Below, piece after piece: positions 7,704 to 32,708 of a stretch of DNA of 36,614 nucleotides. Origin of the DNA: a virus; IMG/VR virus record IMGVR_UViG_3300018411_000050, positions 1 through 36,614 of that record, one strand, 5' to 3'. The position numbers and the translations under genes are program-made. The notes under the pieces are model-generated. The model saw only the letters and a list, made by a program, of their open reading frames with translations, searched no databases and was not told where the DNA came from. The number at the start of each line of letters is the position of its first letter. Positions within the stretch are counted from its first letter, which is position 1.

Positions 7704-8639
7704 ATGTCACACAAATATGAAGAAGTGTTGATTGATGGCGACCTCCTTGTGTATGCATGTTGTTCTGCTGCTGAGTATGGTAACGAGCTTGCCGATGTGC
7801 ATCTAGATAAGATTCTGGATGCCATTGACAATAAAATTATCTACATTAAGAATCGTACCAACTCCAAAAAGGTTCGGATGCTCTTTAGTGGCAAGAATAA
7901 CTTCCGCTTTGCAGTTATGCCAGAGTACAAGGCCAATCGAGAATTTGTCGAGCGGCCTTATTATTTGGATGCTGCAAAAGCGTATGCTACACACAAGTGG
8001 GATGCAGAGATTCATGACTCATTAGAAGCAGATGATATGATGTGTATCTATCAAGATCAACGTGGTGGAACTACCATCATTGCGACGATTGACAAAGATA
8101 TGCTGCAATGCCGTGGCCATCATTATCGTTGGGAAACTGTACATAAAGGTGAATCGTTCACAATTGTTGAAGGTGCTGGTGGCCTTCGAGTTGAGAACAA
8201 AGTGAGTGCAACAACTGGCAAGATTACTAAAGCCATTAAAGGCAATGGGCCTTTGTTCCTGTGTTGGCAATTACTTGTTGGCGACCCTACAGATGGCATC
8301 ATGGGTTGTGGTAAGCAAGTTGAGAAAATTCGCAAGTCTGGTAAAAATGCTGGTGAGCGTTATATGGCTCGTGAAGGTGTTGGTGCTGTCACTGCATATG
8401 AACTTCTCTGTAATGCTGAAACTTATGGTGAGGGTATGTCAGTTGTTCGTCGTGAATACAAGAAAGTGTTTGGTGATGATTGGGAATACCACCTACTCAA
8501 ACAAGGTCGTTGCCTGTACATGGTAACTCGATTCATTGACGAAGATAAGAGTAAGTTGCAACTTTGGCACCATGACACTTCACGTTTTGAAGAGTCAGTG
8601 TTTAACACCTGCTCTCGAACTTTTGTGTTTCAAGGGTAA
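7704..8639 (+). CDS. FEN-like 5'-3' exonuclease
   Basis: This 311-aa nuclease of the FEN/T7 gp6-like family would remove RNA primers and process 5' ends, and may help degrade host DNA. Visible metal-binding motifs are DGD at 11-13, EADD at 108-111, DKD at 130-132 and GDPTDG starting at 193, followed by the helix-hairpin-helix-like segment GVGAVTAYELL. MPEYKANR matches the family's arch/DNA-contact region. TTAGGAGGTTCCG gives a strong start signal. It is followed 5 bp later by the HNH gene. Length and motif order match the family well. Confidence 0.92.
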   Translation: MSHKYEEVLIDGDLLVYACCSAAEYGNELADVHLDKILDAIDNKIIYIKNRTNSKKVRMLFSGKNNFRFAVMPEYKANREFVERPYYLDAAKAYATHKWDAEIHDSLEADDMMCIYQDQRGGTTIIATIDKDMLQCRGHHYRWETVHKGESFTIVEGAGGLRVENKVSATTGKITKAIKGNGPLFLCWQLLVGDPTDGIMGCGKQVEKIRKSGKNAGERYMAREGVGAVTAYELLCNAETYGEGMSVVRREYKKVFGDDWEYHLLKQGRCLYMVTRFIDEDKSKLQLWHHDTSRFEESVFNTCSRTFVFQG

Positions 8640-9363: not shown

Positions 9364-10072
9364 AGTTAATCAGCTTGACGATGGCACAAGCTATGTTAAG
9401 GCAAAGTATTTCGAGGGCGAGCAACTAAAAGGGTACTGGAAAGTTTACCGCAAAGTTGATGGTGTTCGTGTAATGCGAAACAAAAAGGGTGAGCCTGTAA
9501 GTCGTGCAGGCAAACCGCTATATAATGTAAACCACTTGCAGTTTTCTGATGCAGAGGTGTTTAGTAAAGATTGGAACACTTCTGTATCCTTGGTTCGCTC
9601 TCAGTCTTATCAAGAAGTAACTCAGGATATGATCTATGAGCTTACTGATGGCATGATTGATGACCGCCTTTACATGGGCACAACAAAAGACCCAGACAAC
9701 GACAAGTTGAAAGGTTTGATGGAAATGCGACTGAAAGATGGCGACGAAGGTCTGGTAATACGTCAACTGCATAAGAGTGGTAAGTTTTATGTTTGGCTTA
9801 AAGTTGTACCAAAGAAGCAGGCCGATGTTCGTATCACTGGCTTCACTTCGGGAAATGGTAGACTCCTTGGAACACTCGGGAGTATTCAAACCAAACATGG
9901 TAGCGTTGGCAGTGGCTTCGACGACTTACTTCGTGATCAAATCTGGGCACACCGTGACAAGTTGAAAGGCTCTATCATCCAAGTTGAGTATCGAGAAGTT
10001 ACAGAGGCTGGCAAACTTAGGTTTCCTGCATTTGTACGTTTCCGCGAAGATAAGAATGAGGAAAGCATCTAA
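9356..10072 (+). CDS. Small ATP-dependent DNA ligase
   Basis: This would seal nicks during replication. At 238 aa it is much shorter than T7 ligase (359). The nucleotidyltransferase motif I is KVDGVR (Lys33 would be adenylylated), followed by a motif Ia/III-like region (SRAGKP, DAEVF), motif IV EGLVIR and motif V WLKVVPK. A short OB-like C-terminal part follows (GSIIQVEYREV). The start is ATG 9356 with GGAGGAAGAGG upstream, inside the previous gene. The stop overlaps the dNMP kinase start (TAATG). All core motifs are present, so a compact but functional enzyme is plausible. Confidence 0.85.
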   Translation: MSKVNQLDDGTSYVKAKYFEGEQLKGYWKVYRKVDGVRVMRNKKGEPVSRAGKPLYNVNHLQFSDAEVFSKDWNTSVSLVRSQSYQEVTQDMIYELTDGMIDDRLYMGTTKDPDNDKLKGLMEMRLKDGDEGLVIRQLHKSGKFYVWLKVVPKKQADVRITGFTSGNGRLLGTLGSIQTKHGSVGSGFDDLLRDQIWAHRDKLKGSIIQVEYREVTEAGKLRFPAFVRFREDKNEESI

Positions 10073-10632
10073 TGCGTGTAATCATTCTTAATGGTCCACC
10101 AAACATTGGTAAGGATACTTTGGGTAATAATGTTCAACAACTGATTGGTTGGCCGCGTATGGAGTTTAAAGAGGCTCTGTATCGTGAGACTGCAAGTTAC
10201 TACGGTGTAGACCTAGTTACCTTTGCAATGCTGGCATCTGGAAGAACAACTAAAGAAGTACCAATGCCAACACTTGGTGGACTGTCACCACGACAGGCAA
10301 TGATCCATGTTAGTGAGGAAGTTATCAAACCAAAGTTTGGTAAGCAATTCTTTGGTGCAAAAGCTTACGAGCTAATCCAGACACTTGATGGCAGTACAGA
10401 TACAGTTGTATTTTCCGATGGTGGATTTGCTGAAGAGGCTGAGTATCTAGTTGGTGTGGGATGTGAAGTTCATATCATACAACTACATGCGGAGGGACGT
10501 GACTTTGGAAACGATAGTCGTAATTACGTTACTGTGGGCGGTGCAACTAGCCATCGCATCAATGTAACACTCGGACAACCTATGGCAGACCTTACTGCTT
10601 TTGTAAATATTTTCTTTGGAGAAACTGAATGA
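10072..10632 (+). CDS. Deoxynucleoside monophosphate kinase
   Basis: This 186-aa P-loop kinase is of the T4 gp1-like type, converting dNMPs to dNDPs for phage DNA synthesis. The Walker A motif is at the N-terminus (NGPPNIGKDTLG, residues 6-17), and VVFSDGGF fits the core strand of the fold. It begins the nucleotide-metabolism block that continues with MazG, ThyX and ribonucleotide reductase. It overlaps the ligase stop by one base, and its own stop overlaps the next gene by 4 bp (ATGA). Exact substrate range cannot be read from sequence alone. Confidence 0.83.
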   Translation: MRVIILNGPPNIGKDTLGNNVQQLIGWPRMEFKEALYRETASYYGVDLVTFAMLASGRTTKEVPMPTLGGLSPRQAMIHVSEEVIKPKFGKQFFGAKAYELIQTLDGSTDTVVFSDGGFAEEAEYLVGVGCEVHIIQLHAEGRDFGNDSRNYVTVGGATSHRINVTLGQPMADLTAFVNIFFGETE

Positions 10633-11054
10633 CCGAACAAGCTCAAGTTGTAATCCCACGTGCAAGCCGCACTGCAAAAGACATTCGTCGTGAATTTGTA
10701 GAGACAGAGGAATACCTGGAAATTGGTCGCCGTCTGCGCGATATGGTTACTTGGCATCACAATCGCAACCTGATTGAAGGTAGTGATGACAAAACCCAAT
10801 TTGCTAAACTGGTTCAAGAAGTTGGTGAACTTAGTGACAGCATCTGCAAGGGTAAAGATATTAAAGATGATGTTGGTGACATTATTGTCGTACTGGCAAA
10901 CCTGTGTGCTCGCAACCGTGTGTCCTTCCTATCTTGTCTGGAACAAGCATGGAGCGATATCAAAGATCGTGAAGGTATCATGTATGAAAACGTGTTTGTT
11001 AAATCCACTGATCCAGAGTATGCAAACATTGTCGCCCGCAGAAGTAACGGATAG
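10629..11054 (+). CDS. MazG-like nucleotide pyrophosphohydrolase
   Basis: This 141-aa all-alpha NTP pyrophosphohydrolase would hydrolyse NTP or dNTP to the monophosphate and PPi, feeding the neighbouring ThyX and kinase steps or lowering (p)ppGpp-type signals. The metal-binding motifs are EVGEL near residue 62 and DDVGDII near residue 80, followed by the WSDIKDREG segment common in MazG-like proteins. It starts in ATGA overlap with the dNMP kinase gene. The last 35 bp overlap the inserted HNH-AP2 gene. Its C-terminal EYAN is repeated at the end of that HNH protein, so the mazG 3' end may have been rearranged by the insertion. Confidence 0.85.
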   Translation: MTEQAQVVIPRASRTAKDIRREFVETEEYLEIGRRLRDMVTWHHNRNLIEGSDDKTQFAKLVQEVGELSDSICKGKDIKDDVGDIIVVLANLCARNRVSFLSCLEQAWSDIKDREGIMYENVFVKSTDPEYANIVARRSNG

Positions 11055-11556
11055 TTGGTCAAAACTATTCCGGTACAGCGATGGAAAACTGTTCTGGTTG
11101 CCCTTAAAATATAAAGGGTTTGTGTACGCAGGCAAAGAGGCGGGCAGTCATAATAAAGGTTACTTGTGGGTAAACTCCAAGCAACTAACTAAAATTACAG
11201 CAGTGCATGTAATCATTTGGGAAATGCACCACGGAAAAGTGCCGGAAGGGCTTGTGGTAGACCACCGTGACGGCTGCACAATGAACAACAAAATCGGTAA
11301 TTTACGGTTGGCAACTCGCTCTCAAAACGCAATGAATGCCCGTGGTAAATCAGATAGTCGCTCAAAACTACCTAAAAATGTCTACGTGGACTACCACACT
11401 CAGACCTGCATTTACTACCGTGCACAAGTGTGCGTGGAGGGTACATACTACAGAGTTGGTAAACTCTCACTAGCGGAAGCCACAATTGTGGCTGAAAAGC
11501 TAAGACAAGAACATCACAAAGAATATGCAAACAAAGGAGAATCCTATGAAGTATGA
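11020..11556 (+). CDS. HNH homing endonuclease with AP2-like DNA-binding domain
   Basis: This 178-aa free-standing homing-type endonuclease is inserted between mazG and thyX. The HNH nuclease region includes HVIIWEMHHG (about 63-72), VVDHRDG (79-85) and NNKIGNLRLATRSQN (89-103), the standard phage HNH pattern. Residues about 115-170 (VYVDYHTQTCIYYRAQV, then YYRVGKLSLAEATI) match an AP2-type DNA-binding domain. The first in-frame ATG downstream of the mazG motifs is 11020; it has only a weak ribosome binding site. An open frame continues upstream without a match to the family. The gene overlaps mazG by 35 bp and thyX by 11 bp. Confidence 0.88.
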   Translation: MQTLSPAEVTDSWSKLFRYSDGKLFWLPLKYKGFVYAGKEAGSHNKGYLWVNSKQLTKITAVHVIIWEMHHGKVPEGLVVDHRDGCTMNNKIGNLRLATRSQNAMNARGKSDSRSKLPKNVYVDYHTQTCIYYRAQVCVEGTYYRVGKLSLAEATIVAEKLRQEHHKEYANKGESYEV

Positions 11557-12262
11557 TTTTATCAGGGCACGAGTGATTGCAGTTAGCGAACCTGTAGTCA
11601 TTGAAATCCCTGATGCAGAAGGTGTTATCACATTTGCAGCGCGTGTTAGCAACCCAAGCAATCAAAACAACTTCGAAACAAGTGCTGGTTTGTTGAACTA
11701 CTGCAAGAAGCATAACCATTGGTCTATCTTCGAACAAGCTACAGCAACCATTGAAATCGAAGCACCACGAGATATCACACGTCAGATTATCCGCCATCGC
11801 ACTGCAAGTTTCCAAGAGTTTAGTCAACGATATGCTTCTGTGACAGACGAGTCGTTTATTAATCGTGAACTGCGTTTGCAGGACATGAAGAACCGCCAGA
11901 ATAGTGTCAAGCTTTCCAATGCAGCTTATTTAACAGTTGCAGAGAAACAAGACTTGCTCCACAAATGGCTCGACGCACAACAGGAAGTCATTGACATTAC
12001 CAAGTATCACTATAACCGTATGGTTGATGCTGGTGTTGCAAAGGAAGTTGCACGAGTATTGTTGCCAGAAGGGCTTACAATGTCGCGTATGTATATGACA
12101 GCAAACCTTCGTACATGGATGCACTACTGTGACGTCCGTGAAAGTAACGGTACTCAACTGGAACACATTGCAGTGGCTAAAACTGTGCATGAAGCCCTAG
12201 CTGAGTATTTCCCAACAATTATGAATGAGGTGTTGAATGAAAGTGGGAGTAAACAAAAATGA
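11546..12262 (+). CDS. thyX: Flavin-dependent thymidylate synthase ThyX
   Basis: This 238-aa enzyme methylates dUMP to dTMP using FAD and methylenetetrahydrofolate. The ThyX signature RHR-x7-S is exact: Arg83, His84, Arg85 and Ser93, within RHRTASFQEFSQRY. The C-terminal substrate-binding part includes RVLLPEGLTMSRMYMTANLRTW. I choose ATG 11546, which has AAAGGAGAATCCT upstream, over the in-frame ATG 11525. It overlaps the HNH gene before it and nrdA after it, making one nucleotide-synthesis operon. Confidence 0.96.
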   Translation: MKYDFIRARVIAVSEPVVIEIPDAEGVITFAARVSNPSNQNNFETSAGLLNYCKKHNHWSIFEQATATIEIEAPRDITRQIIRHRTASFQEFSQRYASVTDESFINRELRLQDMKNRQNSVKLSNAAYLTVAEKQDLLHKWLDAQQEVIDITKYHYNRMVDAGVAKEVARVLLPEGLTMSRMYMTANLRTWMHYCDVRESNGTQLEHIAVAKTVHEALAEYFPTIMNEVLNESGSKQK

Positions 12263-14021
12263 TGTAATCATTGATACTCGCCGGGATGAACTATTGTCTG
12301 AACAAGGTGCTGAGCTGATTCGTAAGCATTACATGAAAGAGGGTGACGTTAGCCCTCAAGATGCTTTTGCACGAACAGCCGCACGTTATGCTACAGACTC
12401 GGATCATGCGCAGCGTTTGTATGATGCAGTGTCACAGCTGCATTTTATGTATTCTTCGCCAGTGCTATCTAACAGTGGCGAGAATGATCGTGGCTTGCCT
12501 ATCTCATGCTTCCTATCGCATGTACCAGATACTATTGATGGGCTTATCTACCATGAAGACGAAACCAAATGGTTGTCTATCTTTGGTGGTGGTGTTGGTG
12601 GTCATTGGAGTGATGTTCGTACAGTGTCCAAGAAGGCACCGGGCGTTATTCCTTTCAGCCACTCTGTTGATGGTAGTATGACTGCATATAAACAGGGTGA
12701 AACTCGTAAAGGTGCTTATTCAGCCTATTTGGATGTAAACCATCCAGAGATTCGTGAGTTTATCAACATTCGCGTTCCGGGTGGTGATGAAAACCGTAAA
12801 GCTACAAACATCCATAACGCAGTGAACGTAACAGATCACTTCATGGATTGTGTGTACAATGATCTGCCATACCAACTAATTGATCCAAACTCTGGTGCTG
12901 TTAAAGATACTGTGTCTGCCCGAGAAATTTGGGAAAGTATCCTCACAGTGCGTCACCGTACTGGTGAGCCGTATATTAACTTTATTGACACAGCAAATGA
13001 AGCATTGCATCCAGCACAAAAGAAACTTGGTTTGGCAATTCGTGGCAGTAACCTCTGCAATGAAATTCACCTTGTAACTGACCAAATGCGGACAGCAGTA
13101 TGTTGTTTGTCAAGTCTGAACTTGGAGAAAATGAATGAATGGGCGCCTACTCTCATTGGTGATTTGGTTGAAATGTTGGATAACGTACTGGAAGTATTCA
13201 TTCAGCGCGCACCTCACGAAATTAAGAAAGCAGCTTACGCAGCGATGCGCAGCCGCGACATTGGTATTGGTGCTATGGGTTGGCACGGCCTACTTATGGC
13301 TAATGACATTCCATTTGAATCTGTCACAGCTGTATCTTGGACCCGTCAAATCTTCTCCGAAATTAAACGTCAGGCACAAGTTAAGAGCTTGGAGCTTGCG
13401 CGTATTCGCGGTAACTGCCCTGATGCGGAAGAGACTGGTTATCGTGCTCGCAACTTGCATCTACTTGCTATTGCTCCTAATGCTAATAGTAGTATTATGT
13501 CCAATTGTACTGCTAGTGTTGAGCCTATACATTCTAACGCTTTTGCTCATCGGACTCGCATCGGTACCCACCTTGTTAAGAATCCTCATCTACAACGTAA
13601 ACTGGAAACTAAAGTTCCGGTAAAAATGTTGGAAATGTTGGGCATGACTGCTCAACAATGGATTAACAAACAATGGGAACTTGTCATCGAAGATGATGGC
13701 TCTGTTCAGAAGTTGCATTGCTTGGATGACAAAGAGAAGGCTGTATTCAAAACCTTCAAAGAGACAAACATGATGGCTGTAATTGATCAAGCGAGTGAAC
13801 GCCAAGTCCACTTGTGTCAGGGTCAATCTATCAACCTCTCATTTGCAGCAGACTGCACAAAAGAGTTGTTCAACCGTGTGCACATGTATGCCCACAAAAA
13901 AGGTTTGAAAGGTCTTTACTACGCACGCACTGGTAGTGTTGTTAAAGCTGATAAACTTTCCAAAGAAGTAATTCGTGAAATCCTAGGTGATGCTGACGAA
14001 TGCACTGCTTGTCACGCATAA
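12237..14021 (+). CDS. nrdA: Class Ia ribonucleotide reductase, large subunit
   Basis: This catalytic subunit reduces NDPs to dNDPs. At 594 aa it is shorter than E. coli NrdA (761). It lacks the N-terminal ATP-cone, so dATP feedback inhibition at that site should be absent. The core is complete: Cys91 (PISC) and Cys289 (AVC) as the redox pair, Cys274 in SNLCNE as the thiyl-radical site with Asn272 and Glu276, the radical-transfer pair Tyr561-Tyr562 in GLYYART, and the C-terminal CTAC at 589-592 for thioredoxin or glutaredoxin. The start overlaps thyX by 26 bp with GAGGTG upstream; a GTG two codons later is an alternative. nrdB follows after 9 bp. Confidence 0.96.
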   Translation: MKVGVNKNDVIIDTRRDELLSEQGAELIRKHYMKEGDVSPQDAFARTAARYATDSDHAQRLYDAVSQLHFMYSSPVLSNSGENDRGLPISCFLSHVPDTIDGLIYHEDETKWLSIFGGGVGGHWSDVRTVSKKAPGVIPFSHSVDGSMTAYKQGETRKGAYSAYLDVNHPEIREFINIRVPGGDENRKATNIHNAVNVTDHFMDCVYNDLPYQLIDPNSGAVKDTVSAREIWESILTVRHRTGEPYINFIDTANEALHPAQKKLGLAIRGSNLCNEIHLVTDQMRTAVCCLSSLNLEKMNEWAPTLIGDLVEMLDNVLEVFIQRAPHEIKKAAYAAMRSRDIGIGAMGWHGLLMANDIPFESVTAVSWTRQIFSEIKRQAQVKSLELARIRGNCPDAEETGYRARNLHLLAIAPNANSSIMSNCTASVEPIHSNAFAHRTRIGTHLVKNPHLQRKLETKVPVKMLEMLGMTAQQWINKQWELVIEDDGSVQKLHCLDDKEKAVFKTFKETNMMAVIDQASERQVHLCQGQSINLSFAADCTKELFNRVHMYAHKKGLKGLYYARTGSVVKADKLSKEVIREILGDADECTACHA

Positions 14022-14030
14022 GGAGAACCT

Positions 14031-14975
14031 ATGTTACAAGAATTTAGCACCACATATAAACCATTCAAATATCCACAGTTCATGGAGTACGCTGTAGCTC
14101 ACGAAAAAATCCATTGGATTGAGGGTGAGATTGAATTGCAGGATGACGTTGCTCAGTGGAACACTGGTGTACTTGATCAGATTGAAAAGGACTATGTTCT
14201 TCAAATCATGCGATTGTTTACGCAGACAGATTGCCAAGTTGGTCAAAACTACTGTGACCTGTTTATTCCAGTGTTCAAGAACAATGAAGCCCGTTGCATG
14301 CTTCTTGCTTTTGCAGCTCGTGAAGGTATCCACCAACGTGCATACGCATTGTTCACTGATACCATCGGTTTGCCAGAGAAAATCTACTCAGAGTTTCTTA
14401 AGTTTGATTCAATGGCAAATAAGATTTCCATGATGCAAAGCAACGATGTGTCAACAGATGAAGGCATTGCCCTCAGTTTGGCTCAAACAGTTTGCAACGA
14501 AGGTATGTCACTGTTCAGCAGTTTTGTGATGCTACTCAACTTTCAGCGTTTTGGAAAGATGAAGGGCTTGTGCAAGATTACTGAGTGGAGCATCCGAGAC
14601 GAAACTCAGCACGTACTTGGAATGTCTGAGTTGTTCAAGACGTTCTGCAAGGAGAATCCAGATGTACTCACTGATGCATTCAAGCAAAAAGTTTATGAAA
14701 TGTATCGTATTGCTGTTGACCTTGAAGATGTATTCATCGACGATGCCTTTGCAAAAGGCGCCCCCGAAGGACTCACTATTCATGGTATGAAGCAATACAT
14801 TCGCTTTGTTGCAAATCGTCGTTTGCAGCAAATTGGTTTCAAAGAGAATTGGCCAGGTTTGGAAAATCCATACCCTTGGTTAGAATGGATTTTGGCTGAA
14901 GGTCAATCTAATTTCTTTGAAACGAAGGTTAGCGAATACTCCAAAGGTGGCATGACGGGCGACTGGGTTTATTGA
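14031..14975 (+). CDS. nrdB: Class Ia ribonucleotide reductase, small subunit
   Basis: This radical-generating ferritin-like subunit is 314 aa. Metal ligands and the radical tyrosine are readable: Glu98-x2-His101-x3-Tyr105 (REGIHQRAY), Glu157 (VCNEGMSL), and Glu191 with His194 (DETQH). An N-terminal carboxylate region (IEGEIELQDD) precedes them. AAGGAGAACCT gives a strong start. It is the last gene of the left-hand metabolism block. The stop codon lies in the loop of a small perfect inverted repeat (CTGGGT at 14963-14968 with ACCCAG at 14975-14980). After it, base composition rises sharply and no gene follows for 500 bp. Confidence 0.96.
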   Translation: MLQEFSTTYKPFKYPQFMEYAVAHEKIHWIEGEIELQDDVAQWNTGVLDQIEKDYVLQIMRLFTQTDCQVGQNYCDLFIPVFKNNEARCMLLAFAAREGIHQRAYALFTDTIGLPEKIYSEFLKFDSMANKISMMQSNDVSTDEGIALSLAQTVCNEGMSLFSSFVMLLNFQRFGKMKGLCKITEWSIRDETQHVLGMSELFKTFCKENPDVLTDAFKQKVYEMYRIAVDLEDVFIDDAFAKGAPEGLTIHGMKQYIRFVANRRLQQIGFKENWPGLENPYPWLEWILAEGQSNFFETKVSEYSKGGMTGDWVY

Positions 14976-24407: not shown

Positions 24408-25853
24408 ATGTCGTCAGTTCCAATTTCCGAGTATATTGACGTAAGCATTACGCTTGCACCTACTCCACAAGGTTTGTCGGGTTTCGGCAAGCTCTTGTTC
24501 CTGAGTAAAGAAGCAAGCGCAGGTGTTGCACCAATTCTCCCCACTGAGCGGGTTCGCCAGTATTCCAGTATCAAAGCTGTGGCTGCTGATTTCCCTGCCG
24601 GTGAAATTAACAAAGCTGCAACTGTTTACTACTCTCAATCACCGAAGCCTATCTATTTCATGGTTGGTTTGATTGACGGTACTGATACACCTGCAAAAGC
24701 AACTGGTAACAACACTCCAAACTTGGCCACACTGCAAGCTATCACTGCTGGTGGTTTCACCATGACTGTGAATGGTACGTTGGTTGTTATTAGTGCTGTA
24801 AACCTGAGCGCTGTAACATCGTTTGCTCAAGCTGCATCCGCAATCCAAACCAAACTGCAAGTACAGCTTCCGGGTACACTGTGTTCGTATGATGCAAGCC
24901 TTGGTAAGTTTGTTATCACAAGTCCAACCTCCGGTGTAACTTCCACCATCACTGTTGCCTCTGCTGATGTTAGTGGCCTAGCTGCTGCTATTGGCATGTT
25001 GTCTGCCACGCTTGTACAAGGTAAGTCGGAAGAGACTCCAGAAGATGCACTCACTCAATGCGAACAATATGACAACTCGTTCTACGGTGTTGCACTTGAT
25101 GCTGAGTATGAGGATGTGCAAGCATCTTATGATGCTGCTGTTTGGACTCAGGCCCGTAACAAAGTGTTCTTCAACACCACCAATGATGCGGATTGCTTGA
25201 CTGCCACTGCTCCAACTACCTTGGTTGGTCAGATGAAAGATGCAAGCCTCAAGCGCACAATTTCTACTTATGCACCTGTTGCTGGTAGTTATGCTGGTGT
25301 GTCTGTAGCTGGCCGTGCTTTCACCGTCAACTTCGAAGGTACTAATACTACCCTAACTTTGATGTACAAGAAGCTGCCTACAATTCCTGTTGCTAAACTT
25401 AGCTCTAGCCAGAAGGGCCACTTGGCTTCTATCAATTGTAACGTCTTCTTGGATGCTGGTGGTAACTCCATCTACGATGAAGGTAAGATGGCTGATGGCA
25501 CTTTCTTCGATACTGTTCATGGCACCGACTGGTTGCAGAATCGTATTGAGACTGATGTATTCAACCTGATGTATCGCTCGCCAACTAAGATTCCTTATAC
25601 CGACACTGGTGTAAGCATGATTATCCAGAAGGTTGAGCGAGGTTTGCGTCAAGGTGTAACTAACGGCTTGATTGCCCCGGGTTATACAACTGATGGCACT
25701 TACCTTGAATTGGGTTATCGCATTGATTACATCCCTGTTAGCGATGTTAGCGATGCAGACAAAGGTAATCGCATCTACCGTGGTGTTACTTTCATTGCTG
25801 TGGGTGCTGGTGCAATCCATAAGATCACTATTACTGGCTCGTTCTCGGAATAA
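24408..25853 (+). CDS. Contractile tail sheath protein (DUF3383 type)
   Basis: This 481-aa protein is the tail sheath, proving contractile morphology. The N-terminus (SEYIDVSITLAPTPQGLSGF) and FLSKEASAG match DUF3383 sheath proteins. Conserved C-terminal segments include TDVFNLMYRSPTKIPYTDTG and the RIDYIPVSD region. The middle domain (about residues 85-200) is Thr/Val/Ala-rich and probably surface exposed. AAGGAGGCATACATAAT is a very strong ribosome binding site. The tube gene follows after 14 bp, the usual sheath-tube pair. Confidence 0.93.
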   Translation: MSSVPISEYIDVSITLAPTPQGLSGFGKLLFLSKEASAGVAPILPTERVRQYSSIKAVAADFPAGEINKAATVYYSQSPKPIYFMVGLIDGTDTPAKATGNNTPNLATLQAITAGGFTMTVNGTLVVISAVNLSAVTSFAQAASAIQTKLQVQLPGTLCSYDASLGKFVITSPTSGVTSTITVASADVSGLAAAIGMLSATLVQGKSEETPEDALTQCEQYDNSFYGVALDAEYEDVQASYDAAVWTQARNKVFFNTTNDADCLTATAPTTLVGQMKDASLKRTISTYAPVAGSYAGVSVAGRAFTVNFEGTNTTLTLMYKKLPTIPVAKLSSSQKGHLASINCNVFLDAGGNSIYDEGKMADGTFFDTVHGTDWLQNRIETDVFNLMYRSPTKIPYTDTGVSMIIQKVERGLRQGVTNGLIAPGYTTDGTYLELGYRIDYIPVSDVSDADKGNRIYRGVTFIAVGAGAIHKITITGSFSE

Positions 25854-25867
25854 GGAGTAGCTAATTT

Positions 25868-26323
25868 ATGAAGCAGTATAGCTTTTATAACGTCGATTTG
25901 TTGCTCGACGGTATTCCTGTAACCGGGTTTACGGATAACAACAGTATCATTTCTGCAGGCCGTACTAACGTGCAACACACGAAAGTAATTGGTGCTCGTG
26001 GTGAAATGTCTGTTGCAACTATTGCTGACCGCTCTGGTCGTATTGTATTCACCTTGCTGCAAACCAGTGATTACAACGCTGTTCTAAACAGTCGTGCAAT
26101 CCTTTCGCAGAACACTGGCTTGAGTGGCAACCGTGCTACCTTCGACCCAATTCAGGCATTGATGAACGATAAGATGGGTTTGGCTCTTGTAACTGGTGTA
26201 AACGGTTTCATTCCTGTTATGCCTGCTATCGTTCGTGGTACTGGTATTGTTTCACTCAGTTGGACAATTGAGTTTGAGCAAATCTGGTTCACCAATGGCA
26301 AGTACGATTACGTCGGCCTGTAA
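25868..26323 (+). CDS. Tail tube protein (DUF3277 type)
   Basis: This 151-aa protein is beta-rich, starts MKQYSFYNVDLLLDGIPVTG and contains GARGEMSVATIADRSGRI, matching the DUF3277-type tube proteins. It would polymerise into the inner tube through which DNA passes. TAAGGAGTAGCTAATTT precedes the ATG. It sits directly after the sheath and before the tail chaperones, as in other myophages. A stable hairpin follows the gene. Confidence 0.88.
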   Translation: MKQYSFYNVDLLLDGIPVTGFTDNNSIISAGRTNVQHTKVIGARGEMSVATIADRSGRIVFTLLQTSDYNAVLNSRAILSQNTGLSGNRATFDPIQALMNDKMGLALVTGVNGFIPVMPAIVRGTGIVSLSWTIEFEQIWFTNGKYDYVGL

Positions 26324-26337
26324 TTAACAGAATGTTT

Positions 26338-26361
26338 GCTGGGGGCAATTGGGCCCTCAGC
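26338..26361 (+). promoter_or_regulatory. Stable hairpin between tube and tail chaperone genes
   Basis: GCTGGGGGC (26338-26346) pairs with GGCCCTCAGC-side bases 26353-26361 over 9 bp with one G-U, leaving an AATTGG loop. No T-run follows; the ribosome binding site of the chaperone gene starts about 3 bases later. It could protect upstream tube mRNA, partly attenuate read-through, or limit chaperone translation, any of which would fit the large copy difference between tube and chaperone. Confidence 0.6.
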
Positions 26362-26375
26362 TTAGGAGAACTATT

Positions 26376-26762
26376 ATGGCGTGTAAACAAGAGACTCGTG
26401 AGATTCGGGGGAAGCAAGTATTTGTTCGTCAGTGGCCAGCTTCAAAGGCTATGGATATGCAAATCAACCTGTTGACCACTATGGGTGATGATTGTTTGGG
26501 TTTTGTATTAGGTGACTGGACTTTCGCTAACCTCATGTTCATTTTGCAACGTGTAGAGCGGCCAGTGTTCCTTGCTTTGGTTAAAGAATGTATTTGTGCA
26601 GCACGCATTGATGGTGTTGAGATTAGTGCAACTAACTTCGATGTGGAGTTTAGTGGTGACTTGATGTTCATCTATGACCTGTTCTCATTCGTACTGGAGG
26701 TAAACTTCAAGGATTTTTTCGCAGAAGGTCTAGCAAGAATGGAAGCAATCAAGAAAGTGTAG
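26376..26762 (+). CDS. Tail assembly chaperone, short form
   Basis: This 128-aa protein is the lambda gpG-like tail assembly chaperone by position: immediately after the tube and before the tape-measure-position gene. ATG 26376 has TTAGGAGAACTA upstream; a longer frame opening at TTG 26349 would start inside the hairpin and is unlikely. The fold looks mostly helical (residues about 30-115). Near its end is a T6C slippery site allowing a -1 shift into a second open frame. Continued zero-frame translation ends at TAG 26760-26762, producing the abundant short form. Confidence 0.8.
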   Translation: MACKQETREIRGKQVFVRQWPASKAMDMQINLLTTMGDDCLGFVLGDWTFANLMFILQRVERPVFLALVKECICAARIDGVEISATNFDVEFSGDLMFIYDLFSFVLEVNFKDFFAEGLARMEAIKKV

Positions 26763-27004: not shown

Positions 27005-27014
27005 GGGCATGACA

Positions 27015-30000
27015 ATGGATGAAAAAGAGTTACCGGCAGTTACAGAATATGGTGTGTTCAACGTAGAAAAGCCTGTGCTGAAATTGGGCAAACGCTCTAA
27101 ACCAACTGTGACGGTTACTCGCTCCAATGGTGAGTATAAAGCCCCTGAGCAATCTATGGTGTCAGAAACAGTTGATGCTAATAGTGCAGCTCAAAAGAAG
27201 AAAGACAAAGCAATGCGTCGGAAGCAGCTTGCTTACTTCATGGCGAAAGCCACTGGTGGTGATGCAAAGGCTTTTGAAAGGGTTATCGCAAGTGAAGACT
27301 GGGATGATCTTGATGTACAAGAAATGTTGTTGGAAGATCGCTTTGCAAGGTTTCGTGAAGTGCCTTTGGTATCAACGAACGAATTAGTAAAAGCGAAGGT
27401 TGCGCAAACAAATAAGAATGCGACAACAAGAAAGCTGGAACAGATTCAAGAGAAACGAGAGTTTATCGGAAAACAAACTGGTGCAATAACCAGCGACTTT
27501 GAAGAAACTACAAACCTCATTACTCCAGAAACTGTAGTGGCTGGAAAGATTCGAGCAGCAGGTTTGGAAAACGAACTTGCAGCAGTGCTTACAAAGTATG
27601 ACCAATACCAATCAATGTCTCCACTTGAGCGTGCCAAATCTTTCAGCAATGAGGAATTGTCAATCTACAAGAATCTTATTAAGTCTGGCCTAACTCCGTC
27701 GATGTTGACTGGTAAAAAGGCTGCACTTGACTTTGGTGATAATGGTGGAACCTTTGATGTTGAGAAAGAGGATATTGAGCAACTATCGGAAGTTAGTTAT
27801 GCACAGGACTTCACCTCACCCCATCAAGCACTTGCATCTATCCTCGGGGCATTCAATAAGCAGGAGGGTTCTTACGACGTAATCCCACTGACCAAGGAAG
27901 CATCACCAACTTTCTACGGGGAAGAATTCAAACTCAAAGCACCTGTGAAGGTTCCTGAGTATATGAAGGTGGCTAACACACTTCAAGGTTTGACGCCACA
28001 ACAGCAACAAACAGAAGTGCTTGGATTACCAGATGAAGCTAACGTCAAGGAATACTTTGACAATCTTGCTGAGCAATACATTGATCCACAGCAACTGGAA
28101 TACATGACACCAGCTGAACGGAGTAAGGCCACACGTCTTATATCCATGCAGCTTAGTAGTATGCTTCCTAAAAGACTTAAAGAAATCTCAGTAGCTAACG
28201 CAACAAACATTCAACGCAATGAGGAACTGTTTGCAAAGATTTCTGTTGAGCTTGGTACAGAAGAAGCAGTACGTTTAGCTAATGCTGGACAAGCTGGCTT
28301 CACTGCACCTATCGCAGCTTACACTGCGTATCCAAGTCCCCATGAACTTGTTGGGTCATTGAATAGCAGTAAGCTTCGTGAGTTTGCTTCAAGTGTTGTA
28401 AAGCGTGGTATGACTTCTTCTGGACGTTGGACAGATGATCCCACACAAGCAGATACACTTTCTACACTCATCGGATATGGTACGAAGAACATTGCGTACA
28501 GTCGATTTGAAAGTCAGGATGATGAATATCAACGTGCCACTGTTAAACGTGCTGCACTTACAGAACTACCTAAACAACTTGGTAGAATCTTTGGTATTAG
28601 CGACTCTGATGTAGGAAGGCAGTCTTGGGGTGGTGGACTTTCCCTTGACTATGATCGAGTGGAAGAATCATTGGATGAACAGCTTGCAAGTCAAGATCAA
28701 TTCCATAAACCACAACTTGATCGCTATGCTCGTGACGAACTTGCACGCACTGTGGATGTGTTCTTTCAACCGGCTGGTGATTTGTCTGCTGATTATGTTG
28801 ACAACAACCTAACGCAGATTGACGAATACCGTGAATTGCAGGACGCAGACGCCTCATTGATGGACGCAGACGGCCCAACGGGCGATGATACGGGAGGTGG
28901 CGACACTAACGTAGCGGGTGAGGGTGAAGGTCGCGCATACGTCGAGCCAAGCGGTTTGGAGCAGCTTACACGAGAAGGCCCGGAGGTAGACGACTCGTTT
29001 GCACGGGCAGCGCCAAGCGTTGATATGGCAGCCGCAGAGGGCGTTAGGGAAGGCGCAGCCACCAACCAGCGTGCATCCCCTGGGGACAACCTTGGAACGT
29101 CACACGCGACGACACAGGCCACCCACGGAAGCCGTTTAGGCCAGTCTATTGCCACTCGTGATTCTCGTGTTGAAAGTCTAACTGGAGCACGCCCGGCAAA
29201 CCAAACACAAAGCATTACCAGCCAAAGTAATAAAGAGGCAATTGTTGGTAAAGCTCCTGTAAAAACTACTGAAGCAACTGTTGATAAAGCTCCTGTAAAA
29301 ACTACTGAAACAACTGTTGGTAAAGCTCCTGTAAAAACTGCTGAAGAGCCACCACAGAAAAATGTTTCTGGGACACGTAGTGAAAGGTTAGCTGAAGCTC
29401 AAGCAGAGTATAAGAGCCAAAACCCAGATATATCTATTAGCAATGCACCACAAGGTAGTCAAGAGTGGCTGGATAAAAGAAAGCTGCTAGCAACTGCTGC
29501 TGATGCTAAACGAATGGTTACAAGTGATCGAGCTCGCAACACCTTTGTTGGCGAGAAGTCGATGGAGAACTGGGGATTAACCACAACTCAGCCATATCCT
29601 AGTGAAGATATTGAGCGTGGCAAACGTATGGAAAGTTCTATTCGACAAGAGTATGAACGCCAGACGAACACAGAAGTTCTTGAACTTGGTTTGCTTGAGA
29701 ATAAAGGTTTCCCCGGTGGTGCCTCTCTTGATGGACTTGTTACACAAGATGGCAAGCCTATGCGTAAAGGTGTTGAGTTTAAAGCACCACGAGAGTTTCG
29801 TGACTTTGCACAATACCACGATCAAGTTCAAATGCAGATGGCAGTTGGTAACCTTGATTCTGTAGACATTATGCAGGGTGTTGAAGTGGATGGTAAACTT
29901 CGCACACAAATGCAAACAGTCAACGCTGATATGGAATGGCGCAAACGCAATCAAGGTAAGATACAGCAAGCTCAAGATAGTATTGAGCGTAACGCTGGAA

Positions 30001-31133
30001 TGACTCAAGCTGAGTTCCTTGCCGCTAATGCTGCAATGGCTGCTGACAAATCTGGTAAGTATGGTTTCCTTGTTAGTGCAAGCAAGACTGAAGTTGAAGA
30101 GGCACTTGATGGTAAGAAACTTCAAGATGCACAACAACGTGAAGGTATGGCTTTTGCTCGCACTTGGAACCAAGCACATAAAGAGAATGCCAGACGTGAT
30201 GCTGCCGGTGGTGACGGTGGTGGTGATGATGGCGCCAGTATTGGAGAGAAAGGTAGAGGTTGGTTAAGTACAGCTTACGAAACCGTCAAAGATGTTACAC
30301 AGACGGTGGATAGGAGTGCACAGAAACTAGCCGAAGCATTTCGTGAAGATATTGGACAAGCACTAGATTACGGTGTAAACCCAGGGACATTCCTTGGTAA
30401 TAACATCGCACTTCGTGGTGCTGGTATGTCTGATCGTGATGCTCGTTCTGCTACTTTGTCTGGTGCACAACTCGCAGGTCAAATGGGACTTGGTGATTAT
30501 AGTGGTGCTGTTTCTCAAGTTACTGGGACATTGGGCTTGCTCGATATTGCAGAAATGCAAGAGCTTGCAGATAACCCCACTGAAAAGATCCGTCGCATTA
30601 CAGAAAGATCTAAAGCTCGTGGTGATGATTCATTTACTACGGCTGAGGCACTTCGTCGTTCTGGTTTGTCTGGCTCTGGAACAATGGCCAACTTGTCTGA
30701 GCAAGATCAACGGAAGATTGTGGATCAAGCTGCCGATCGTGCAACTGCGGATATGAGAACATACGCTGAAAGTAATGCGGTTGTAAACTTTGGTGCAGAA
30801 GCTGTACATGTTAGAAGTGGCGCGGCAGCCGCCACAAACTATGGGATATCCCAAGAGGGTGCAGGCTGGGCTCAGAAGCAACTTGACACCATTAAGAATC
30901 CTGCTGGAGTAATTGGCAAGGGTATTGATGAAACAATAAGTGAACTTATTGGTGCAGACAACTTCCAACGTGGTGACAAAGGTGAAACATACTCAGGACA
31001 GGTTGATCGCTCTGGTGCAAAAGATGTAAACATCCATGTAACAGTAGAGGCATCTGGCGTAAGTGTAACAACTCAATCAGGGGATAAGGTGCAGAAGACG
31101 CAATCTGCATATTCTCATTCAACAAACGAGTAA
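27015..31133 (+). CDS. Tape-measure-position virion protein with YqaJ-type nuclease domain
   Basis: At 1,372 aa this is the largest protein here, placed between tail chaperones and baseplate hub where the tape measure protein is encoded. ATG 27015 has GAGGG 7 bases upstream; ATG 27009 is too close to it. Residues 1-600 are mostly helical and charged. Residues about 608-708 are a Gly/Asp/Ala-rich linker encoded by G+C-rich DNA, followed by three 12-residue repeats at 744-778. Residues about 813-960 look like a YqaJ/lambda-exonuclease nuclease: QGSQEWLDKRK, RGKRME (Glu873), SLDG (Asp906), VEFKAP (Glu921, Lys923) and YHDQVQMQM (Tyr934, Gln937, 939, 941). The C-terminal 330 residues are helical with a beta-rich end. 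No clear membrane helix is visible, unusual for a tape measure protein. Confidence 0.82.
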   Translation: MDEKELPAVTEYGVFNVEKPVLKLGKRSKPTVTVTRSNGEYKAPEQSMVSETVDANSAAQKKKDKAMRRKQLAYFMAKATGGDAKAFERVIASEDWDDLDVQEMLLEDRFARFREVPLVSTNELVKAKVAQTNKNATTRKLEQIQEKREFIGKQTGAITSDFEETTNLITPETVVAGKIRAAGLENELAAVLTKYDQYQSMSPLERAKSFSNEELSIYKNLIKSGLTPSMLTGKKAALDFGDNGGTFDVEKEDIEQLSEVSYAQDFTSPHQALASILGAFNKQEGSYDVIPLTKEASPTFYGEEFKLKAPVKVPEYMKVANTLQGLTPQQQQTEVLGLPDEANVKEYFDNLAEQYIDPQQLEYMTPAERSKATRLISMQLSSMLPKRLKEISVANATNIQRNEELFAKISVELGTEEAVRLANAGQAGFTAPIAAYTAYPSPHELVGSLNSSKLREFASSVVKRGMTSSGRWTDDPTQADTLSTLIGYGTKNIAYSRFESQDDEYQRATVKRAALTELPKQLGRIFGISDSDVGRQSWGGGLSLDYDRVEESLDEQLASQDQFHKPQLDRYARDELARTVDVFFQPAGDLSADYVDNNLTQIDEYRELQDADASLMDADGPTGDDTGGGDTNVAGEGEGRAYVEPSGLEQLTREGPEVDDSFARAAPSVDMAAAEGVREGAATNQRASPGDNLGTSHATTQATHGSRLGQSIATRDSRVESLTGARPANQTQSITSQSNKEAIVGKAPVKTTEATVDKAPVKTTETTVGKAPVKTAEEPPQKNVSGTRSERLAEAQAEYKSQNPDISISNAPQGSQEWLDKRKLLATAADAKRMVTSDRARNTFVGEKSMENWGLTTTQPYPSEDIERGKRMESSIRQEYERQTNTEVLELGLLENKGFPGGASLDGLVTQDGKPMRKGVEFKAPREFRDFAQYHDQVQMQMAVGNLDSVDIMQGVEVDGKLRTQMQTVNADMEWRKRNQGKIQQAQDSIERNAGMTQAEFLAANAAMAADKSGKYGFLVSASKTEVEEALDGKKLQDAQQREGMAFARTWNQAHKENARRDAAGGDGGGDDGASIGEKGRGWLSTAYETVKDVTQTVDRSAQKLAEAFREDIGQALDYGVNPGTFLGNNIALRGAGMSDRDARSATLSGAQLAGQMGLGDYSGAVSQVTGTLGLLDIAEMQELADNPTEKIRRITERSKARGDDSFTTAEALRRSGLSGSGTMANLSEQDQRKIVDQAADRATADMRTYAESNAVVNFGAEAVHVRSGAAAATNYGISQEGAGWAQKQLDTIKNPAGVIGKGIDETISELIGADNFQRGDKGETYSGQVDRSGAKDVNIHVTVEASGVSVTTQSGDKVQKTQSAYSHSTNE
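28840..29140. other. G+C-rich island inside the tape-measure-position gene
   Basis: Hand counts give 39/60 G+C at 28861-28920 and 38/60 at 28981-29040, against 25/60 at 28501-28560. The island codes for a low-complexity linker rich in Asp, Gly, Ala and Ser between the N-terminal helical part and the nuclease domain. Confidence 0.7.
29244..29346 (+). repeat. Three in-frame 36-bp repeats encoding a K/P/T-rich linker
   Basis: Units begin at 29244, 29280 and 29316 and encode VGKAPVKTTEAT, VDKAPVKTTETT and a partial VGKAPVKT copy. Near-identity at DNA level suggests recent duplication. They form a flexible linker just before the nuclease domain. Confidence 0.88.
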
Positions 31134-31154: not shown

Positions 31155-32708
31155 ATGTGGCAACGTAAGATTGATTTAAAGATCACCAACAAAGACACAG
31201 GGGCTGTTCTCCTATCTACATCCGAAAACAGAATTGACTTTGTTTATCAAGGCAACTTAAGTTGGATGGCAGATACGTTGAAGTTGGATGTTTATAACTT
31301 AGCACCTGAAACATTGAAGATGCTTTTGGATACAAAGCGCCGTGCTATTAAAGTTGATGTTGGGTACAAGGATGAACCAGCAACAATATCCACAATGCTG
31401 AATGGGTATGTTGTGAACGTGGCTGGCCGAAAGGCTACACCAAACCACATAACCTCAATTTGGTGTATTCCATTTTCTGCGCAAACAATGAGTATGAACG
31501 CAGGCTTAAATGGCTTGGTGTATGAGAATGGAACTCTCAAAGGTTTGATTCAGGCGATTTCAAAACAGGCTGGATATGTTTCTGAACCACGCTTCTTTGG
31601 TATGGATGATGATGTTCTATCAACACCAATACCTAGTTACACTATGCGTGGTTCTGTTAATCACTCATTGGTTGAGCTGGGTGAGCAATTCCGTTTCTAT
31701 GTCCGTGGTACAAACAGTGATGTACAGATTGTGAGTATGATGAACTCGGCTGCTACAGTAGAGAAGATCAAGAACAATCAAATCAGTTTGCACAAGTTGT
31801 CTATAGATAAATTGAAGGGCACACCGCAAGCAACTGTTGCAAAGATTGACCTGACAGTAAACCTAAATACTGCAATTGACTGCGGTGACATTATTGATGT
31901 TTCGGCTTTCTTGGGTGCGAGGACAAACGATCCAAACCGTCCACCAGCTGATGCAGTTATCTCCGTAAACAATGCTGACTCAGTATTGTTCAGGAGTGAT
32001 ACACTTTGGTCGCACACAGTGTTTCCAGAGTATCTTGTGTTGTATACTCAACATGTTGGAAGTAACTACGCAGCAGCTTGGGAAACTCGCATCACTGGGG
32101 TTCAGTTTAACAGCGGCCTTGTTGGCGATCATGAAGTAAGCGGTAATGGCGTAGGTCCAGGAACTTGGGATTTGGATGTTGGTAAAGAGGCAAACAAACC
32201 CAAAGGCTTTCCTACTGTGCGTCAATCCATTCATGCCTCCAATACACTAACAGAACGTGAGGCCAAAGCATTGAGCACAGTGCAACTCACACCACAACAG
32301 AATGATGCTATTGATAGTGTTGCTCGTGGTGACACAAAGAAGGGTAACTTCCTCCGTGATAAGTTGATTATCGAAAACCGTGGTCACGACCGTGTTCGCA
32401 ATGTGGAATCTAAAGCTGGTGCTGCTGGTCCGTATCAAATTATGCCGGAGACTGGAAGAAACTTGGGTATGACTATTAACGACCAACAAGATGATAGGAT
32501 GGATTTCGCTAAGTCTACCGCTGCTGCTGGTAAGTTGTATGATGAGTTGAACAAGCGGTATGATGGAAACCTAGACGCCATGAATGCAAATTATAATGGT
32601 GGGAATCTAGCAGCGTCTCAAGTTTTGGTGGGCGAGAAAACAAACAAAGAGACAGAGGACTATATACGCATGGCCAGAAATCTTGACGCACAGCGAGGGG
32701 GGCAGTAA
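31155..32708 (+). CDS. Baseplate hub protein with C-terminal lytic transglycosylase domain
   Basis: This 517-aa protein joins two parts. Residues 1-350 resemble phage hub/gpD-like proteins: MWQRKIDLKITNKDTGA at the start, then NRIDFVYQG and repeated beta-strand units. Residues about 390-515 form an SLT-type lysozyme fold, with IIENRG (candidate catalytic Glu407), GAAGPYQIMPETG (425-437) and NANYNGG, which would cut peptidoglycan during infection. TAGGAGGTACATTTA is a strong ribosome binding site. It follows the tape-measure-position gene by 21 bp and its stop overlaps the next start by one base. Confidence 0.9.
   Translation: MWQRKIDLKITNKDTGAVLLSTSENRIDFVYQGNLSWMADTLKLDVYNLAPETLKMLLDTKRRAIKVDVGYKDEPATISTMLNGYVVNVAGRKATPNHITSIWCIPFSAQTMSMNAGLNGLVYENGTLKGLIQAISKQAGYVSEPRFFGMDDDVLSTPIPSYTMRGSVNHSLVELGEQFRFYVRGTNSDVQIVSMMNSAATVEKIKNNQISLHKLSIDKLKGTPQATVAKIDLTVNLNTAIDCGDIIDVSAFLGARTNDPNRPPADAVISVNNADSVLFRSDTLWSHTVFPEYLVLYTQHVGSNYAAAWETRITGVQFNSGLVGDHEVSGNGVGPGTWDLDVGKEANKPKGFPTVRQSIHASNTLTEREAKALSTVQLTPQQNDAIDSVARGDTKKGNFLRDKLIIENRGHDRVRNVESKAGAAGPYQIMPETGRNLGMTINDQQDDRMDFAKSTAAAGKLYDELNKRYDGNLDAMNANYNGGNLAASQVLVGEKTNKETEDYIRMARNLDAQRGGQ

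Follow-up and report, generated by a model that had tools for sequence, protein, structure and literature searches.

What does a nuclease of the lambda exonuclease type do in the protein that tailed phages encode at the tape-measure position? So far, tape measures have been assigned roles as rulers, as conduits for DNA and as enzymes that cut the wall. The question arose from the 36,614-nt virus record IMGVR_UViG_3300018411_000050 (positions 1 to 36,614; this whole stretch is called the window below), in which a sequence-only reading had described a complete YqaJ/lambda-exonuclease domain within a long tail gene. That reading had proposed that the domain might be ejected into the host and there attack host or plasmid DNA, process the entering genome end or counter defence.

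The tape-measure-slot gene and its nuclease domain

The gene is the longest ORF of the tail module and lies between the genes for the tail assembly chaperone and the hub. The order sheath, tube, chaperone, tape-measure-slot gene and hub, derived from Pfam and PHROG matches, is the one found in relatives (Table 1). As had been stated from sequence, the frame runs without interruption through the ORF translation, over 1374 codons or 1372 when counted from the second ATG (codon 3). The sequence-only reading began at this second ATG, and its residue numbers are thus 2 lower than the 1374-aa numbering used here. The protein comprises an N-terminal region (residues 1-620), a variable linker (621-800), the YqaJ/lambda-exonuclease domain (approximately 782-1005) and a conserved C-terminal region; the model of the N-terminal region is mostly helical, but with a pLDDT of 42. 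We tentatively take the product to be a tail tape measure and the phage to be a contractile one resembling Chaseviridae, as one part of a composite explanation to which, as a whole, we give somewhat less than an even chance.

Table 1. Coordinates of the features discussed in the text (window positions; residue numbers refer to the 1374-aa protein)
Feature	Position	Strand	Remarks
Separate 5'-3' exonuclease	7704-8639		replication module
Tail sheath	24408..25853	+	PHROG 205, E 6e-119
Tail tube (KPP10 Orf10-like structural protein)	25868..26323	+	PHROG 280, E 3e-31; labeled tail tube in relatives
Tail assembly chaperone	26349..26762	+	PHROG 11820, E 2e-38; Pfam Phage_TAC_15
Tape-measure-slot protein	27009..31133	+	1374 codons, 149 kDa, open frame
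Three 36-bp tandem repeats	29238..29346	+	encode a recurring segment of the linker, directly before the nuclease domain
Lambda-exonuclease-fold domain (modelled)	29352..30023	+	224 residues; AlphaFold2 pLDDT 90.7, pTM 0.87
Pfam PF09588 YqaJ match	29463..29849	+	residues 819-947
Arg824	29478..29480	+	aligned with lambda exonuclease Arg28
Glu875 (earlier Glu873)	29631..29633	+	helix Glu; matches the glutamate of YENDAR in lambda exonuclease
Asp908 (earlier Asp906)	29730..29732	+	metal-binding Asp; aligned with the Asp of lambda exonuclease SPDG
Glu923-Phe-Lys925 (earlier Glu921/Lys923)	29775..29783	+	E-x-K motif; aligned with lambda exonuclease E-L-K
Tyr936-x2-Gln939-x-Gln941 (earlier 934/937/939)	29814..29831	+	catalytic-site helix
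C-terminal region, aa 1095-1235	30291..30713	+	conserved in the window group as well as in both subfamilies of Chaseviridae
Baseplate hub with C-terminal SLT transglycosylase domain (aa 416-496)	31155..32708	+	Pfam, PHROG

The Pfam profile YqaJ (PF09588) matched the protein over profile positions 1-147 of 150, with a whole-protein E value of 1.4e-11 and 45.3 bits against a curated cut-off of 22 bits, and the match is enclosed by the interval 29451-29900 to which the domain had originally been assigned. Among the PHROG families, the 1374-aa protein matched phrog_19855, annotated "virion structural protein" (1.5e-21), and the RecE-like exonuclease phrog_434. For structure prediction, the domain was aligned with 51 relatives drawn from viral contigs, and AlphaFold2 then returned a lambda exonuclease fold (Table 1). 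A Foldseek search of the PDB with this model ranked LHK-Exo first (E 7.7e-10) and lambda exonuclease next (E 2.7e-9), and structural alignment gave Z scores of 19.8 and 19.0, respectively, with an rmsd of approximately 3 over 182-191 residues; the nearest folds had Z scores of 18-20 over 181-191 residues. The fold model and the PDB comparison also extend the complete domain beyond the Pfam match. Profile search and structure prediction, both suggested in the sequence-only reading, are thus in good agreement with its claim of a complete domain.

All residues named in that reading are present and in register with lambda exonuclease. The motifs W820xxxR824, G871xxxE875, SLDG, E923-F-K925 and Y936xxQ939xQ941 were located in the sequence, and in a profile alignment with PDB sequences R824, E875, D908, E923, K925 and Q939 fall on lambda exonuclease positions, which presumably have the catalytic roles known for that enzyme. 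Arg824 corresponds to Arg28, which we take to be the 5'-phosphate contact, and Lys925 to Lys131, the residue mutated in structure 3sm4. Searched for as an ordered set, the motifs have a single occurrence in the protein and are absent from all 20,000 shuffles of it; the pattern, however, was composed with the sequence in view, and the proper test is therefore provided by Pfam and the fold. Profile alignment and fold match together suggest one shared active site; at the residue and fold level the domain is catalytically intact, and it is most likely an active nuclease.

Among the window-type relatives, no part of the protein is better conserved than the nuclease domain. Indeed, the window and its relative L003 share 81% identity in the domain, 64% in the N-terminal part and 54% in the C-terminal part. 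Furthermore, dN/dS in the domain is the lowest in the protein, at 0.02-0.08 in the pairs that allowed computation (0.07 for the window and L003, 0.02 for L003 and L004), with synonymous sites near saturation in wider pairs. Indels between relatives concentrate in the linker, whose length varies as in a tether; in the near relative L002 it is shorter.

Occurrence of the fusion in Chaseviridae and relatives

The sequence-only reading rested on one sequence, and a recombination exonuclease read into a neighboring structural gene by an assembly or gene-calling error could have produced the same picture. This explanation, to which we give virtually no credence, is refuted by independent isolates from many genera that carry this fusion in an unbroken frame. 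A Pfam search over 16 Chaseviridae-type records found exactly one YqaJ match in each, in 16/16 within the tape-measure-slot ORF, which rules out an artefact of one contig and answers the call for the same fusion in related phages. In none of these 16 records did the search find a stand-alone YqaJ copy. The YqaJ-bearing frames span 1197 to 1383 codons, except for the broken frame of Spp001 with 752.

Similarly, tblastn with the domain gave matches in phiEcoM-GJ1, MLP1 and Pel53. The full phiEcoM-GJ1 protein matched 72 records at a coverage of at least 80%, the best 60 listed being all of the phiEcoM-GJ1 phage type, and a Nefertitivirinae protein as query found 28 records. The viral contigs L108, L109 and L113 carry the same fusion. 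In the relatives whose regions were inspected, the gene follows the tail assembly chaperone and precedes the hub genes; in phiA050 the frame is open and sparse annotation leaves the gene order unseen. The residues of W-x3-R, G-x3-E, D, E-x-K and Q-x-Q are kept in 25/25 aligned tape-measure-slot proteins, and R, E, D, E-x-K and Q are invariant also when compared with stand-alone enzymes in the alignment with the 51 viral-contig relatives.

Two other histories of the domain were considered. A loss in Nefertitivirinae was suggested by a first profile, which missed these phages at E 1e-3, but Pfam and a second profile found the domain in all of them. Independent fusions in the window and in GJ1 are not favored, because the C-terminal parts of the proteins are homologous. 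In a tree, the fused domains lie on one side of a branch (89/83), which is weak evidence for a single origin of the fusion, as the stand-alone rows were picked by similarity and long branches meet there. Outside Chaseviridae, non-exhaustive scans of viral contigs, phage records and bacterial genomes revealed no such fusion, and the matches whose frames or annotations were inspected look like stand-alone enzymes of approximately 200-355 aa.

The window itself shares gene order and homologous structural genes with Chaseviridae. Its sheath is 45.6% identical to that of Vibrio phage VPs20 and approximately 37-40% identical to those of Cleopatravirinae. Its 36.6 kb fall short of the family range of 52-56 kb, and we found no single-subunit RNA polymerase in it; near relatives measuring 53-54 kb do have this gene. 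A second phage-type RNA polymerase ORF of 594 aa (PF00940, approximately 1e-50; L130 967-2751, G001:C1 ~24466-26250) also occurs in near relatives of the window, flanked by the genes for the ribonucleotide reductase large subunit and the terminase; at this place the window encodes the small subunit. The same relatives have a weaker, early RNA polymerase match as well.

Some records deserve a comment. The host of Pel53 (PP952070.1) is recorded as Staphylococcus hyicus; its tape measure is 88% identical to that of coliphage phiEcoM-GJ1, and because the family infects Gammaproteobacteria, this host label looks doubtful. The tape-measure gene is split into several frames in Shewanella phage Spp001 (L090 12690-16384) and Aeromonas phage pAh6-C (L105). 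SppYZU05, a close relative, has a single tape-measure frame, and the splits are possibly sequencing errors.

A proposed path from the virion to a DNA end

Mass spectrometry of a homologue bears on where the domain resides. In phage 4HA13, LC-MS/MS of CsCl-purified particles placed the tape measure protein second among the strongest proteins, and 15 virion proteins were found at a coverage of at least 50%, reported at protein level without residue ranges (PMC9699118). The 4HA13 tape measure gene (MN136198) is the YqaJ-bearing gene. By analogy, the window protein would be packed in the virion tail as well. The Cleopatravirinae version of this protein has an SLT transglycosylase domain at its C-terminal end (residues 1087-1164 in Fifi44/L093; GJ1 annotation), which fits a release into the envelope. 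In the window, the SLT domain is instead part of the hub protein, and it has thus moved between neighboring tail genes.

These observations can be assembled into the following sequence of events. One lambda-exonuclease-type domain is a fixed part of the tape measure and would be packed with it in the virion tail, as published for the homologue. Upon ejection, the tape measure would leave the tube before the DNA, as expected from tape-measure biology, and would bring the nuclease to the entry site. There it would degrade linear double-stranded DNA in the 5'-to-3' direction, starting from ends with a 5' phosphate, the likeliest substrate being the entering end of the phage's own genome, which is the weakest step. 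Resection could make the ends ready to pair, to circularise or to take part in first-round recombination. We infer activity, ejection and substrate, and this whole explanation, an intact tape-measure nuclease ejected first and acting on DNA ends, is the one we prefer, with a confidence that stays a little below evens.

The choice of substrate follows from what is known of the enzymes. Lambda-exonuclease-type enzymes start at DNA ends. As the family needs such an end and the 5'-phosphate arginine is conserved, circular host chromosomes and plasmids are unlikely first substrates, and the proposal that the domain attacks intact host or plasmid DNA is weakened accordingly. The trimer of lambda exonuclease is too wide for a tail tube, so that the domain in the virion would be monomeric, unfolded or staggered. 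Chasevirus genomes are linear, with direct terminal repeats of approximately 3 kb (PMC12842549), and this makes processing of the entering end the first choice. The width of the trimer counts against this explanation, as do other findings: a search of 14 records for ERF and RecT annealing proteins found none, which weakens the recombination step, a separate 5'-3' exonuclease is already encoded in the window (Table 1), and a hydropathy scan of the 1374-aa protein (maximal mean, 0.94) revealed no strong hydrophobic segment for crossing the inner membrane.

The same evidence for an intact, virion-borne exonuclease (Pfam, fold, the residues kept in 25/25 proteins and the 4HA13 virion data, PMC9699118) would also suit a weapon or gatekeeper. 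Instead of processing the phage's own genome, the ejected enzyme would degrade linear DNA that superinfecting phages deliver at the membrane, or host DNA with pre-existing breaks. Tethered at the entry site, it would encounter freshly injected linear DNA, and the host defence SNIPE shows that cleavage can take place where DNA is injected, close to tape measures (PMC13190303). We nevertheless regard such a role as unlikely, because the domain is kept in a whole lytic family with hosts of various genera, more than would be expected of an arms-race factor, because no means of sparing the phage's own DNA is visible and because intact circular chromosomes and plasmids offer no ends. A role before ejection is also conceivable: the newly made tape measure would serve inside the cell as a late lambda-exonuclease-type enzyme in recombination or concatemer processing, its presence in the virion being incidental. 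YqaJ-family enzymes otherwise serve recombination, often adjoining annealing proteins, and 16/16 records have no YqaJ copy besides the one in the tape measure. However, such an enzyme would be made late, as a structural protein, and be bound by tail chaperones, and GJ1 and the window share a replication set of primase/helicase, DNA polymerase, ligase and the separate 5'-3' exonuclease. Moreover, no ERF or RecT annealing protein was detected in 14 records including the window, in searches for these two families whose bacterial-genome controls were positive. This is not the standard pair of exonuclease and annealing protein, which weakens the recombination reading, and we consider a role before ejection quite improbable.

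Finally, the fold could have been retained to clamp DNA ends or as a spacer in the tail, holding, for example, the leading genome end and cleaving DNA hardly or not at all. The lambda exonuclease fold threads DNA ends, and the protein lies in the path of the DNA through the tail. A mere clamp would not need a catalytic lysine, yet the E-x-K lysine and the metal ligands are kept in 25/25 proteins, despite a domain identity of approximately 30% between the window and GJ1 groups, and this makes a clamp or spacer, in our view, somewhat less probable still. Independently of these roles, the window harbors at 10072-14975 a nucleotide-metabolism block with a dNMP kinase, a MazG-like pyrophosphatase, a ThyX-type thymidylate synthase and both ribonucleotide reductase subunits.

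Relation to known proteins and possible meaning for genome entry

The domain resembles lambda exonuclease, LHK-Exo and YqaJ (PF09588) in fold (Z 19-20), catalytic residues and 5'-phosphate arginine. Unlike the window protein, these are stand-alone enzymes of approximately 200-230 aa, often encoded beside annealing proteins, whereas here the domain lies within a 1374-aa tail protein and ERF/RecT were not found. Also close to the window protein are phiEcoM-GJ1 gp62 and its homologues (PHROG 19855, "virion structural protein"), with the same slot, domain, active site and C-terminal region. They differ from the window protein in a domain identity of approximately 30%, in the earlier position of the domain (~426-637 in GJ1) and in the C-terminal SLT domain. 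The Nefertitivirinae tape-measure-slot protein (PHROG 149, "exonuclease") has the same slot and domain as well; its domain is more distant, with T-P/L-D-A in place of S-L-D-G, but the catalytic residues are kept. The name exonuclease or yqaJ already stands in a few of its records.

Muralytic tape measure proteins likewise have an enzymatic domain built in, but their substrate is the cell wall, while that predicted for the window protein is DNA. Polyvalent proteins injected with phage DNA are also large multidomain virion proteins with enzymes acting in the new host, but their seeds are different ones (T4 Alt, P1 DarA/DarB, MuF, N4 RNA polymerase, etc.; PMC5512222). The main text of that study mentions neither tape measure nor YqaJ.

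The sequence-only reading knew of no established example of such a nuclease. Our literature search, which covered mainly titles and abstracts, with subscription journals mostly outside it, likewise found no description of a tape measure with a nuclease or YqaJ domain. Nevertheless, the fusion is no one-off, and annotations of the gene in single records already say "exonuclease", "yqaJ", "putative endonuclease" or "virion structural protein"; the GJ1 entry, publicly available for a long time, describes a virion protein that has a transglycosylase domain. Enzymatic tape measures are known, and what appears to be new here is an enzyme domain in a tape measure whose predicted substrate, judging from sequence and model, is DNA.

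Overall, it is possible, though we hold it tentatively, that Chaseviridae and their environmental relatives send an active lambda-type exonuclease ahead of the genome, to DNA ends at the entry site. The group includes the cultured E. coli phages phiEcoM-GJ1, 4HA13 and ST32. If true, a conserved tape-measure nuclease would add a step to genome entry, in which an enzyme meets the first DNA end, and this could account for the way the phages use their 3-kb terminal repeats or guard entry sites.
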